A DNA stretch of 57,962 nt from a virus: IMG/VR virus record IMGVR_UViG_3300048834_000191, positions 1 through 57,962 of that record; one strand, written 5' to 3'. The position numbers and the translations under genes were made by a program. Positions within the stretch are counted from its first letter, which is position 1. Every line of letters begins with the position of its first letter. The notes beneath the pieces were generated by a model. That model saw only the letters and a list, made by a program, of their open reading frames with translations, did not search any database and was not told where the DNA came from. Of this stretch, positions 36,705 to 41,418 are shown one piece after another.

Positions 36705-37494
36705 TTAATTTACGTGCCTCGCCCAATACTCTTTCGACTGTGATTGCTCGCATGGCTTGCTTACAGTGTTCGCAGTCAATGATCTTTCCGCACGCCACGC
36801 CGCCCTCGCCCGTAAATATGTTGGCGTGGAAATCATACCCAGTAGTAGCAGGGCTGATAAAACCTCCGAACAATACAACAGCGCCAATACCAACAGCAGC
36901 AGCGCCGTGGTGCATACCGCCTTCACAGCCCATAAACATTTTCGCATGTTGCAGGACTGCAAGTGCTTTCCTGAATGTCGGAGTCTTGATTTCACGCACG
37001 CCTGATAGAACACGGCCGCCGCTATGCCTGAACTGGACAACTTCATGCCCCTCTTTGCGTAGTTGATCGGCTACCGCCTGCCATCGCTCGAACGGCCAGC
37101 GTTTGTTGTTCGCTACTGATTTTTGTTCTGGTACATTCGGCTCAATGACGATGAAGCCAGAGCCAAACTGTTTGCCGAAATCTAATTCGTCTTGATCGAA
37201 AAATATCTCACCGGGTATCGGCTTGAAGTCTCGCCATACCCAATGATCGCCACCGGGATAGAAATTATAGAGGCGGTCACCGGCATAGTGGGCAACCCAC
37301 TCAATGTCAGGTTCACGCTCTGAACCGGGTGGCGCTACGTTCGGATTGTTGCGAAAGATTTCGTATTCGTACGTCTTCCAGCGGATTTTCAGCTTATCGC
37401 CGAAAGCTATTCGCTTTCCTCTTGCCTTCGCGCCACGAGCTAGGCCGGTCGCGATCAGCGCATCGCCAAGGCCGATACTAGAGCGCCCAACTGT
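36658..37494 (-). CDS. GT9-like (heptosyltransferase-type) glycosyltransferase lacking a canonical start, up to 278 aa
   Basis: Open frame from after TAG 37495-37497. It begins SIGLGDALIATGLARGA, the N-terminal phosphate loop of GT9 enzymes, and contains PNVPEQKSVANNKRWP and GCEGGMHHGAAAVGIGAVVLFGG, the donor site. No ATG, GTG or TTG precedes the first conserved motif; the first GTG (36999) is far inside. The frame is +1 to the upstream glycosyltransferase, which ends CTC TAG at 37478-37483. A +1 frameshift, a rare start or an indel is needed. Confidence 0.65.
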   Translation of the reverse strand, partial: TVGRSSIGLGDALIATGLARGAKARGKRIAFGDKLKIRWKTYEYEIFRNNPNVAPPGSEREPDIEWVAHYAGDRLYNFYPGGDHWVWRDFKPIPGEIFFDQDELDFGKQFGSGFIVIEPNVPEQKSVANNKRWPFERWQAVADQLRKEGHEVVQFRHSGGRVLSGVREIKTPTFRKALAVLQHAKMFMGCEGGMHHGAAAVGIGAVVLFGGFISPATTGYDFHANIFTGEGGVACGKIIDCEHCKQAMRAITVERVLGEARKLIASHRNVAVGQQIPA

Positions 37495-38236
37495 CTAATT
37501 CGTCTCGCCACTCTTGGGCGAACTCACAATCTTCGTATCCCGGCATATCTGGTGTGCCTAAAGTGTAGTGCAACAGCTTGGCCTCACCGCGAAACTTCTC
37601 ATCGTACTCGCCTACGAGGAAATTCCACTCCCTGCCTATCGCGCCAATGTCATTATCAGACAGCCACCCGAATTGATGCAGGAACTTCCCGCTTGCGTTA
37701 TTCACAAGATCAATCGTCAACGATTTGTTGGCGGGATGGTCGCAGTTAAACAGCATGACTGACGACCAATTCTTTCGCGCGTATTTAGTCTGCGCTTGCC
37801 CGTCCATTTTAATATCAGACTTGGGCGCGTAATCATGTTGAACGCAAAGCAACGCTTTATGCCGCTGCGTTTCCGCGTATTCAAATAGCCGCACCAGATT
37901 GCAGCCCGGACGAGCCAGCATGTCGCAATCAATAAACAGCGCCCAACCCGTCTGCGCCAGATACGGCACAATGAACCGCGTAAGCGAAAATTGCGTGGAC
38001 ATGGGCGCGTCAGAGATAACATCATATCTCTGGAAGCCCGTTCCTTTAGGGTTCGCCCTGACTTCTTCTTTTCGCCAGTATAAATTCTGCGCGCGCAGAT
38101 CCGATTGAACCAACCCCTGAATCGGGATCGGCTGCGTCAGCCATTTCTTGATCGAATGTCTTGCAACTGCGAAGGCTGCGGACTCTCTCGGATCGAAGCC
38201 TATAAAGATTGATCGTTCATTCACGGCAGAGGACAT
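37478..38236 (-). CDS. Glycosyltransferase (GT-A, DCD motif), 252 aa
   Basis: RSIFIGFDPRESAAFAVARHSI and LFIDCDMLARPG (DxD) are typical of phage and bacterial GT8-like transferases. The N-terminal IFIGFDPRE motif is highly characteristic. Overlaps the GT9-like frame. May decorate capsid, tail or cell-surface sugars. Confidence 0.8.
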   Translation of the reverse strand: MSSAVNERSIFIGFDPRESAAFAVARHSIKKWLTQPIPIQGLVQSDLRAQNLYWRKEEVRANPKGTGFQRYDVISDAPMSTQFSLTRFIVPYLAQTGWALFIDCDMLARPGCNLVRLFEYAETQRHKALLCVQHDYAPKSDIKMDGQAQTKYARKNWSSVMLFNCDHPANKSLTIDLVNNASGKFLHQFGWLSDNDIGAIGREWNFLVGEYDEKFRGEAKLLHYTLGTPDMPGYEDCEFAQEWRDELDSWAL

Positions 38237-38677: not shown

Positions 38678-38753
38678 TGGTCGGAGCGGAGGGACTCGAA
38701 CCCCCAACCCTCGCGCCCCAAACGCGATGCTCTCCCGATTGAGCTACGCTCAG
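38678..38753 (-). tRNA. tRNA-Pro (TGG)
   Basis: Minus strand: acceptor CTGAGCG/CGCTCCG with one mismatch at pair 2, D-arm GCTCAATCGGGAGAGC, anticodon stem TCGCG/CGCGA with loop TTTGGGG, five-base variable region, T-arm GGGGG-TTCGAGT-CCCTC, discriminator A and encoded CCA. Functional if the mismatch is tolerated. Confidence 0.85.
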
Positions 38754-38933: not shown

Positions 38934-39009
38934 TGGAGCCGCCTGTAGGATTTGAACCCACGACCAGAAGTTTACAAAACTACTGCTCTACCAACTGAGC
39001 TAAGACGGC
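38934..39009 (-). tRNA. tRNA-Thr (TGT)
   Basis: Acceptor GCCGTCT/AGGCGGC, D-arm GCTCAGTTGGTAGAGC, anticodon loop TTTGTAA, T-arm GTGGG-TTCAAAT-CCTAC, discriminator T, encoded CCA. The anticodon stem has one T-T pair. It reads the same codons as the host gene whose 3' end is carried at 10057, so it could keep threonine decoding going if integration disturbed the host gene; that is inference. Confidence 0.85.
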
Positions 39010-39363: not shown

Positions 39364-41418
39364 TTACGCGGCTAAATTAGCCTTTTTGAACGCGCCAGCC
39401 TCGACTTTCCGCAATTCATCGAGGGTGTATTCCTTGCCCGCATTGTTAATGAAATCGCGGATTTTAAGCCCGCCACGGCGGAATAAAGCGCCCTTCGTGA
39501 CGCCCAGAACATCATCCTGCACTTCGGCTGATTGTCTGCGTAGCCACTGTTCATAAGTCTGCGTGGCAGGTACCTGGCCGTTCATCGAGGCGCGTGTTCC
39601 CGCAGGAACCTCGTCCACATCCAGCCCAAGCTCGCGAAAACTTTTTGTTACTGGGACCGTTGTACAACGGCAGTTGTGTACCCATATGCCGTTAGCGATA
39701 TAAGCGCCAATTTTTGTTTCGAGGTTATAAACGTGACCGCTAAAATCAACACGATCAACACTGATAACCTTATCAAGGACTATCTCGCCGGATTTTCCAG
39801 CGCAAATCTCAGCAGCAAGTACGGCGTCAGCGTCAACACCGTGCTCAGAAGACTTAAAGAACGCGGCGTCAAAATAAGGCCCGGCGCATTCATGCCGTCC
39901 GTTTCCCTCCCGACCGATGAAGTGGTCGCCCTGTTCAACAGGGGCCGAGGCGTTTCTGCTATAGCCAAGCACTTCGGCTGCGTGCGCACCACAGTAGACA
40001 GACACCTGCGTATGGCCGGTATCAAGCCTCGCAATAGAGCCGAACAGCAGGCTGAGCGAATGAAACGTTCTACGCCAGCCGAGCGCAAAAGACTCGCCAA
40101 GGCCGCGCATGACGCGGTTCGAGGAAAGAGCCATACCGAGGCACATCGTAGAAAAACGGCTGCGACGCGACAAAAACGCCAGACACACGTTTCTAAATAC
40201 GAGCGGCAGATTGCCGATCACCTTAAAAATATAGGGCTCGACGCCGTGTGCCAGAAGGCGATTGGTCGCTACAATTGCGATATCGGTATCGCCCCCGTCG
40301 CCGTGGAAATCTTCGGCGGAAATTGGCACTGGTCGGGCATACATTTCGCGGGAACCGAACGCCGCCTCCGCTACATCCTGAATCTTGGCTGGGACGTTCT
40401 TGTCATCCACATCGACAGTCAAAACAGGCCCGACATGGCCGAGGTCGCGAACTACATTGCTTCCTACGTCAATGCTCGACGCGGGCAAGAACCCCCTGCC
40501 CGTGAGTATCGGGTGGTTCGGGGTGCAGGAAAGCTGCTTGCCAGAGGCAGTGCGAATGACGCAAAGCTCTCCATCGTACCAATGTTTACTTGCACCCGTG
40601 ACCCCATCACGGGTCGTTACAAGAGTGTCCGCAGGGAAGCAGTTAATATGTAGCGGAGGGCGCGGCCCTTCGCCCATATCGTATGTCTTGCCATCAAGCG
40701 CGGCGCAGCGGGGACACGTTCTCGTATCGAGCGTGCTCACCCACTGGATTTTAGAAATAATATCCGCGTTCTGTTTATAGACAAGATCGCGTGCGGAATG
40801 GGAAACGTCTGCAACGGCGGTTCTAACGAGAGCCTCAGCCGAACGCCGCGAGATTTCAAGAATCCCGTCCTTGAACTTCAGTGCCCGCGTGCCGCGAATA
40901 CGCTGGATCATTTCCGGCGTAGTCTGGCCTTCAATCATGCCAAGTCTGATGGCTTGGCTTACTCGCGCGTAATTATTCGCGTTTAAGCTGTCAGTCCATT
41001 CCTTGAGTAGCCGACCGCTAATGGGTTCCCGTGTCGCTAAAGCATTAAGCAACGGCGCGGCGGGCGTCACGATATCCATAACGACCGGAATCGTGCTTGC
41101 CAGAAGATTGGCCTGAAAGCCAGCCTCGTATTTCGCTAGGCTCGATAGCTGCCCGCCAAGCTGATTATTTACCTGACGATATGCGTCCGCTGAAATCTCG
41201 CGAACCGCCTTTAGCAAGGCTTCTAATCTGCGCTTCTTAAATCCATCGCCAACATCGTTCAGATCCAGCTTTTGTATTTGCTGGACTAGATCAAGATCGG
41301 TCTTATTCAGTATCGCAAGTATCTTGCGAACTGTTCCATTGGCGAGACGGAGTAGATTTACTTTGTGTCTAACGGAGGCGTCGAATAGGCCTTCGTTTAC
41401 GGATTGCGATTGAGCCAT
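39364..41418 (-). CDS. SPP1 gp7/Mu F-like head morphogenesis protein interrupted by an intein, 684 aa precursor
   Basis: Extein part: long helical N-terminus, then VRTAVADVSHSARDLVY and WVSTLDTRTCPRCAALDGKTY, PPLHIN followed (after the intein) by CRCTTVPVTKS. This is the Phage_Mu_F/SPP1 gp7 domain with its conserved Cys/His metal-like motif. Excision of 323 residues would leave a 361-residue protein, normal for the family. It binds the portal and takes part in DNA ejection. Between portal and tRNA genes. Confidence 0.9.
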   Translation of the reverse strand: MAQSQSVNEGLFDASVRHKVNLLRLANGTVRKILAILNKTDLDLVQQIQKLDLNDVGDGFKKRRLEALLKAVREISADAYRQVNNQLGGQLSSLAKYEAGFQANLLASTIPVVMDIVTPAAPLLNALATREPISGRLLKEWTDSLNANNYARVSQAIRLGMIEGQTTPEMIQRIRGTRALKFKDGILEISRRSAEALVRTAVADVSHSARDLVYKQNADIISKIQWVSTLDTRTCPRCAALDGKTYDMGEGPRPPLHINCFPADTLVTTRDGVTGASKHWYDGELCVIRTASGKQLSCTPNHPILTGRGFLPASSIDVGSNVVRDLGHVGPVLTVDVDDKNVPAKIQDVAEAAFGSREMYARPVPISAEDFHGDGGDTDIAIVATNRLLAHGVEPYIFKVIGNLPLVFRNVCLAFLSRRSRFSTMCLGMALSSNRVMRGLGESFALGWRRTFHSLSLLFGSIARLDTGHTQVSVYCGAHAAEVLGYSRNASAPVEQGDHFIGREGNGRHECAGPYFDAAFFKSSEHGVDADAVLAAEICAGKSGEIVLDKVISVDRVDFSGHVYNLETKIGAYIANGIWVHNCRCTTVPVTKSFRELGLDVDEVPAGTRASMNGQVPATQTYEQWLRRQSAEVQDDVLGVTKGALFRRGGLKIRDFINNAGKEYTLDELRKVEAGAFKKANLAA
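39673..40641 (-). other. Intein (323 aa) in the head-morphogenesis protein
   Basis: Cys1 codon at 40639-40641 (CFPADTLVTTRDG, block A); block B LSCTPNHPILT with Thr and His; block F HVYNLETKIGAYIANG; block G IWVHN with terminal His-Asn at 39673-39678; +1 residue Cys. These are the catalytic residues of a splicing Hint domain, so splicing is expected. About 200 residues between blocks B and F match no sense-strand endonuclease; their DNA is the antisense of the gene at 39733-40653. The insertion point is the most conserved motif of the host protein. Confidence 0.9.
39733..40653 (+). CDS. Vsr-like (EDxHD) homing endonuclease encoded antisense to the intein, 306 aa
   Basis: GTG 39733 with GAGG eight bases upstream is preferred to GTG 39676. 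Residues 12-48 and 63-100 are two helix-turn-helix segments (LSSKYGVSVNTVLRRLKERG; IAKHFGCVRTTVDRHLRMAG). About residue 131 GKSHTEAHRRK is NUMOD3-like. Residues 154-230 are the nuclease: E157 in YERQIADHL, D183 in NCDIGI, E192 in VAVEIFGG and H199 in NWHW, then DVLVIHID. This is the Vsr-fold EDxHD family of phage homing enzymes. The stop lies opposite the extein codon CTA just outside the intein, so the frame covers almost all intein DNA. Confidence 0.85.
   Translation: MTAKINTINTDNLIKDYLAGFSSANLSSKYGVSVNTVLRRLKERGVKIRPGAFMPSVSLPTDEVVALFNRGRGVSAIAKHFGCVRTTVDRHLRMAGIKPRNRAEQQAERMKRSTPAERKRLAKAAHDAVRGKSHTEAHRRKTAATRQKRQTHVSKYERQIADHLKNIGLDAVCQKAIGRYNCDIGIAPVAVEIFGGNWHWSGIHFAGTERRLRYILNLGWDVLVIHIDSQNRPDMAEVANYIASYVNARRGQEPPAREYRVVRGAGKLLARGSANDAKLSIVPMFTCTRDPITGRYKSVRREAVNM

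Follow-up and report, generated by a model that had tools for sequence, protein, structure and literature searches.

We report an intein in a phage head-morphogenesis gene that is very probably a mobile element that has its homing endonuclease gene on the complementary strand and not fused into the intein. It lies in the window, the stretch of 57,962 nucleotides analysed here. Because the nuclease is written on the opposite strand of the intein, about 300 codons are read as two proteins. As judged from the sequences, both frames are intact, constraint switches strand within the intein, sense-strand stops are avoided along the nuclease, and the ribosome-binding site and start of the nuclease overlap a splicing motif of the intein. 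The element quite probably represents a distinct class of mobile intein not described before, with the endonuclease antisense in codon register and block F co-opted as ribosome-binding site and start. Such inteins would be widespread among tailed phages from several bacterial phyla, at a single conserved position in MuF, with the nuclease occasionally escaping to a free-standing gene beside an intein-less target.

The MuF gene and its intein

The sense strand of the locus carries the following features (the slash marks the splice or insertion point here and below):

39364..41418, minus strand: MuF/SPP1 gp7-like head-morphogenesis gene with intein, 684 aa (phrog_241 6e-138, TIGR01641 3e-13, Phage_Mu_F 1e-11)
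39673..40641, minus strand: class 1 intein, 323 aa, MuF residues 260-582 (TIGR01445, TIGR01443, Intein_splicing)
within the intein, minus strand: motifs Cys1, block B TPNH, block F HVYNLE, block G HN/C
40297..40311, minus strand: motif DFHGD (reverse complement of VAVEI in the nuclease)

The MuF gene is located downstream of portal and terminase genes in this tailed-phage record and forms, together with the intein, one continuous 684-aa open reading frame unbroken by any split. The intein is inserted after PPLHIN and before CRC, and has the residues of a class 1 intein, namely Cys1, a TxxH in block B and a terminal His-Asn followed by Cys+1. The NCBIfam models for intein N- and C-termini (TIGR01445, TIGR01443) match the sense protein above their own cut-offs, and Pfam Intein_splicing matches it slightly under its cut-off (2e-8, 34.4 against 35.8 bits). 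A family alignment of 38 relatives shows no variation at Cys1, TPNH or the terminal Asn. In a structure model of the sense intein, the Hint parts have a pLDDT above about 85, and Foldseek finds the Mtu RecA intein as their best match, with other inteins and mini-inteins also matched (probability 1.00). Residues 144-269 have a pLDDT below 50, and profile searches with the sense protein gave no endonuclease family. The initial annotation, made from the sequence alone, had described an intein with normal splicing blocks and no endonuclease on the sense strand, and both points are borne out. The motif DFHGD, conserved across the sense alignment, is simply VAVEI of the nuclease in reverse complement.

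A Vsr-like nuclease on the opposite strand

The complementary strand carries the nuclease gene with its parts:

39733..40653, plus strand: antisense homing endonuclease gene, GTG start, 306 aa and stop (profile, AlphaFold, Foldseek, PADLOC)
39719..39735, plus strand: nuclease ribosome-binding site with start codon (tcGAGGTTATAAACGTG), the complement of the block F HVYNLE codons (conservation, codon enrichment)
39760..39861, plus strand: first helix-turn-helix unit, helices 10-18, 23-30, 34-43 (model secondary structure, profile matches)
39913..40014, plus strand: second helix-turn-helix unit, helices 61-69, 74-81, 85-94 (HTH_23 1.3e-6, model)
40195..40413, plus strand: Vsr/EDxHD-like catalytic domain (conservation, profile, model, fold match)

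The plus-strand reading frame spans 39676-40653 (325 aa counted from the first GTG), is intact, as is the sense gene, and uses the identical codon triplets, so that the two are in register. Its stop lies 12 bases past the intein, inside the codons of the N-extein.

Searched on its own, the antisense frame matched HTH_23 (1.3e-6) and, weakly, a restriction endonuclease. A family profile built from 18 relatives, which is too variable for motif scans, matched the homing endonuclease I-Bth0305I (PDB 3R3P, E=2.6e-8), and its N-terminal half the helix-turn-helix protein 2LVS; the homing-endonuclease model of PADLOC (HEase) matches the nuclease core at 9e-6. The AlphaFold model, computed from 46 aligned sequences of the window and of contigs, has a mean pLDDT of 90.3 and consists of two helix-turn-helix units, a helical linker and an alpha/beta nuclease core; its best Foldseek match is again the catalytic domain of I-Bth0305I (3R3P, probability 1.00). 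Conserved residues of the catalytic domain in 109 representatives are E157, Y180-N181-x-D183, A190-V-E192, GGxWH (H199) and R211; E157, D183, E192 and R211 reach 98-100% and H199 88%. The proposed similarity of the plus-strand protein to Vsr/EDxHD-type enzymes is thus present in both profile and fold, and the two helix-turn-helix segments, likewise proposed from the sequence, recur in the profile matches and the model.

Block F as probable ribosome-binding site and start

The nuclease most likely starts at the GTG at 39733, which is preceded by tcGAGGTTATAAAC, rather than at 39676. The block F His codon, read on the other strand, is this start codon, and the NLE codons in the same way give the ribosome-binding site. 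Relatives keep the start as ATG or GTG, usually ATG, behind a ribosome-binding site of the GAGGT type. Codon choice in block F points the same way: compared with expectations from extein usage, CAT, which gives the start ATG, encodes His in 67 of 74 cases where 30.3 were expected, and Leu is CTC (which gives GAG) in 61 of 75 where 18.0 were expected, with CTG seen once instead of 25.3 times. A longer plus-strand protein with an upstream start was rejected, as the beginning of the open reading frame differs among relatives and the block F start is constant. Of the span given in the initial annotation, 39673-40653, the overlap of the two genes is real, but the nuclease probably begins at 39733. 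A promoter scan upstream of the nuclease gene gave no convincing candidate.

Selection on the two strands

Because both frames share their triplets, position 1 of the sense codons is the wobble position of the nuclease. We compared 11 phage pairs drawn from four lineages: extein changes fall mostly on sense position 3 (for example 64 synonymous changes and 10 not), those of the intein middle on sense position 1. Between L003 and L008, the N-extein has 68, 46 and 154 changes at positions 1, 2 and 3 (90 synonymous, 18 not), and the intein middle 59, 8 and 23 at the sense positions, with 42 synonymous to 13 non-synonymous in the nuclease frame and 7 to 48 in the sense frame. In all 11 pairs, the middle is more conserved as nuclease than as sense protein. 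Taking one pair from each of seven independent clusters, the synonymous to non-synonymous totals are 242 to 107 for the nuclease versus 74 to 275 for the sense frame, with the same direction in seven of seven. As the changes in the middle are synonymous for the nuclease, the middle is conserved as nuclease; changes in Hint C were mostly synonymous in the sense frame. By these substitution patterns, the exteins and Hint C evolve as sense-coding sequence and the intein middle as nuclease-coding sequence.

The sense frame nevertheless stays open. The nuclease codons TTA, CTA and TCA are stops on the sense strand; with each gene's own preference for A-ending codons as the basis of the expectation, 553.6 of them were expected in 108 representatives below 70% identity and one was seen, which lies upstream of the nuclease start. 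As the relatives are not independent, the nominal log10 probability of -289 is not to be read at face value. As a control, the same sum for the N-extein gave 576 seen versus 699 expected. Of 156 loci, 154 have no break in the opposite in-register frame along the entire nuclease, the two exceptions being L029 and L014. L029 was rejected as a true exception, since there the HMM match merely extends upstream of the start; L014 is a free-standing copy. In a further set, the opposite frame is open in 42 of 43, the remaining one (L281) being a second free-standing copy. In these relatives neither frame is broken at the rate expected by chance, in agreement with the initial claim that both must stay open.

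Distribution among phages

The arrangement is present in hundreds of phages, a breadth that the initial annotation could not reveal. A tblastn search with the plus-strand frame matched 120 phage records at E <= 1e-5, among them phages of Salmonella (Jerseyvirus), Escherichia, Vibrio, Pseudomonas, Klebsiella, Gordonia, Haemophilus and others. In IMG/VR, one pattern search turned up 287 relatives, and we retrieved 80 of them; other searches gave 52 and 43, and genome contigs three, including a Planctomycetota MAG. Single-protein scans of viral contigs with either the window nuclease or the divergent L021 copy as query found nothing, and alignment-based searches of such contigs succeeded. In an unbiased search with the sense intein alone, 80 of 80 contigs also had the antisense nuclease, as did five of five further phages found in a separate search of this kind.

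All 52 host proteins scanned match head-morphogenesis families, and the insertion site is nearly always PPxHPN/CRC. Two Escherichia phages, Ec1-ASingh and BEU35 (L021 and L160), have nearly the same nuclease; in L021, a divergent intein with this antisense nuclease occupies a second MuF site at another Cys, before CRARDG and not at PPxHPN/CRC. In every annotated intein-bearing phage record that we examined, well-studied Salmonella phages included, the nuclease is uncalled, whereas the free-standing L014 nuclease does have a gene call. With the enzyme overlooked by gene callers, further endonucleases may lie hidden in the antisense frames of inteins regarded as endonuclease-less.

Empty sites, free-standing copies and decay

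Precise empty sites occur in relatives. In Gordonia Vividuovirus, the exteins of intein-bearing phages match those of close relatives without interruption, at up to 98.5% identity, and many relatives from Salmonella and Escherichia are also without the insert. Vivi2 differs from Geodirt by one in-frame insertion of 948 bp adjoining AAC TGC, with flanks that are 92-96% identical over 120-200 bases; the junction of sidste and TUMS_E19 was left out of this comparison, as the aligner had misplaced it. In Sedona (L159), of the same genus, this site is occupied by another intein, which likewise has an antisense nuclease of its own. Across this genus (L159 versus L005 and L162), the MuF site can thus be empty or hold one intein type or a quite different one. 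For the window's own lineage our searches found no empty site, and we infer the mobility of the element from the Gordonia and Salmonella phages.

Two relatives of the nuclease are free-standing:

L014:455-1348, plus strand: free-standing nuclease relative, overlapping the end of an intein-free MuF gene
L281:2321-3163, plus strand: free-standing nuclease relative, overlapping the end of an intein-free MuF gene

Both are convergent with the MuF gene and overlap its end slightly. The constraint on stop codons is lost in them, sense-stop codons occurring at about the expected rate (12 versus 15.6 expected in L014, 5 versus 5.6 in L281). In a quick tree, L014 groups within the embedded family beside L010, L006 and L013 (97% support), which suggests that its nuclease derived by escape from an intein. 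The opposite case is found in L140 and L142 (L142:2839-3351), where the intein is intact and the nuclease is cut by a single nonsense codon with the remainder still open. By its sequence, the nuclease here is a recent pseudogene, and the intein frame that contains it is unbroken. As these phages retain the intein with a broken nuclease, the host phage seems not to need the enzyme.

Proposed mechanism and alternative explanations

Splicing, cleavage and homing are predicted here from what is known of the respective families. On the sense strand, MuF would be translated through the intein, the two Hint halves would fold with the middle (about residues 130-270) as a floppy linker between them, and the intein would excise itself between HIN and CRC. 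On the opposite strand, translation would start at the block F His codon (CAT/CAC read as ATG/GTG) from a ribosome-binding site formed by the NLE codons, yielding an EDxHD/Vsr-like nuclease with two helix-turn-helix units. In mixed infections, this enzyme may cut intein-less MuF alleles at or near the PPxHPN/CRC codons, and repair of the break would copy intein and nuclease into the cut allele. Selection would then maintain the protein sequence of the nuclease and keep the sense frame open and its Hint ends intact.

Long antisense reading frames arise most easily in the register in which both strands share their codon triplets, which is the register found here, so that the plus-strand frame might be a mirror of the sense gene, with conservation of the intein mimicking conservation of an antisense protein. 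We consider this exceedingly improbable. The codon-position comparison refutes it, as changes in the middle are synonymous for the nuclease and not for the sense protein, and the stop-codon counts also speak against it, as do the independent profile and fold matches to I-Bth0305I, the confident structure on the antisense side only and the intact nucleases of L014 and L281, which have no intein around them.

If the nuclease is real, its surroundings might still have ceased to splice, leaving a translated insert or remnant that MuF tolerates. Out-of-frame HNH inserts without splicing motifs have been published (PMC11855218), splicing of the present intein is a prediction, and the Pfam match in the window (34.4 bits) falls short of the 35.8-bit cut-off. 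Against this, Cys1, TPNH and the terminal Asn do not vary in the family alignment, Hint C changes mostly at sense-synonymous positions, sense stops are excluded along the whole nuclease and the model matches solved inteins, all of which makes loss of splicing very unlikely. Hardly more probable is a mainly non-homing role of the nuclease, such as the exclusion of competing phages or the regulation of MuF through helix-turn-helix binding or antisense transcription. The two helix-turn-helix units and the persistence of free-standing copies beside intein-less MuF genes would fit such a role, and an antisense transcript over MuF could repress it; but the position inside an intein, the kinship to a homing endonuclease family, the presence or absence at a precise site within one genus and the one contig pair that retains its intein despite a nonsense codon in the nuclease all favour homing.

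Relation to known systems

Canonical inteins with LAGLIDADG or HNH endonucleases share with the present one a Hint domain interrupted by an endonuclease region between blocks B and F, but here the endonuclease is outside the intein polypeptide; in the absence of an in-frame endonuclease on the sense strand, we do not assign the element to this type. Fractured genes with a split intein and a nuclease gene between the halves were reportedly described by Dassa et al. in 2009. They resemble our case in combining a phage intein with an EDxHD-type nuclease gene at the intein, and differ in that here one continuous sense frame fully overlaps the nuclease. A split or fractured gene was accordingly rejected, given the single 684-aa reading frame and the open sense frame in 154 of 156 loci. 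EDxHD members are known from group I introns, as free-standing genes and from between split-intein genes (PMC3943268). Profile and fold place our catalytic domain with the I-Bth0305I type, likewise a multi-domain phage enzyme tied to a splicing element; the difference lies in a gene that is antisense within an uninterrupted intein coding sequence.

The ShiLan element is an out-of-frame HNH endonuclease on the same strand as the phage methylase gene that contains it, with no intein or other splicing element detected (PMC11855218). It shares with our case a phage insert read in two frames, one of which yields a homing endonuclease; the opposite strand, the Vsr-like fold of the EDxHD type and the presence of intein motifs set ours apart and led us to reject an insert of this kind. 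Antisense homing endonuclease genes are also known from nuclear group I introns, such as Didymium L2066 (PMC9548176). These too place the gene opposite to a splicing element, but the element is an RNA intron, the gene sits in a peripheral loop and there is no overlapping second protein frame. No Rfam intron family matched between 38500 and 41500 at E-values up to 1. In the part of the literature that we covered, we found no antisense endonuclease within an intein, so an earlier report is possible.

Judged from sequence alone, this is a rare case of two unrelated folded proteins kept by selection on both strands of the same 300 codons. It would be a new way for an intein to carry its mobility gene, as the enzyme need not belong to the spliced polypeptide. 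With its Hint-coding ends and nuclease-coding middle, a splicing motif that conceals a ribosome-binding site, and escapees in nature, the family should make a good test system for the evolution of overlapping genes.

Two further elements were seen near the MuF gene. Just downstream of it lies a skipping-rope RNA (RF02924; 38762-38930, minus strand; 46.9 bits, above the gathering score), flanked by tRNA-Thr (38934-39009) and tRNA-Pro (38678-38753). Within the head gene cluster, a 252-aa open reading frame (37478-38236, minus strand) looks glycosyltransferase-like by eye.
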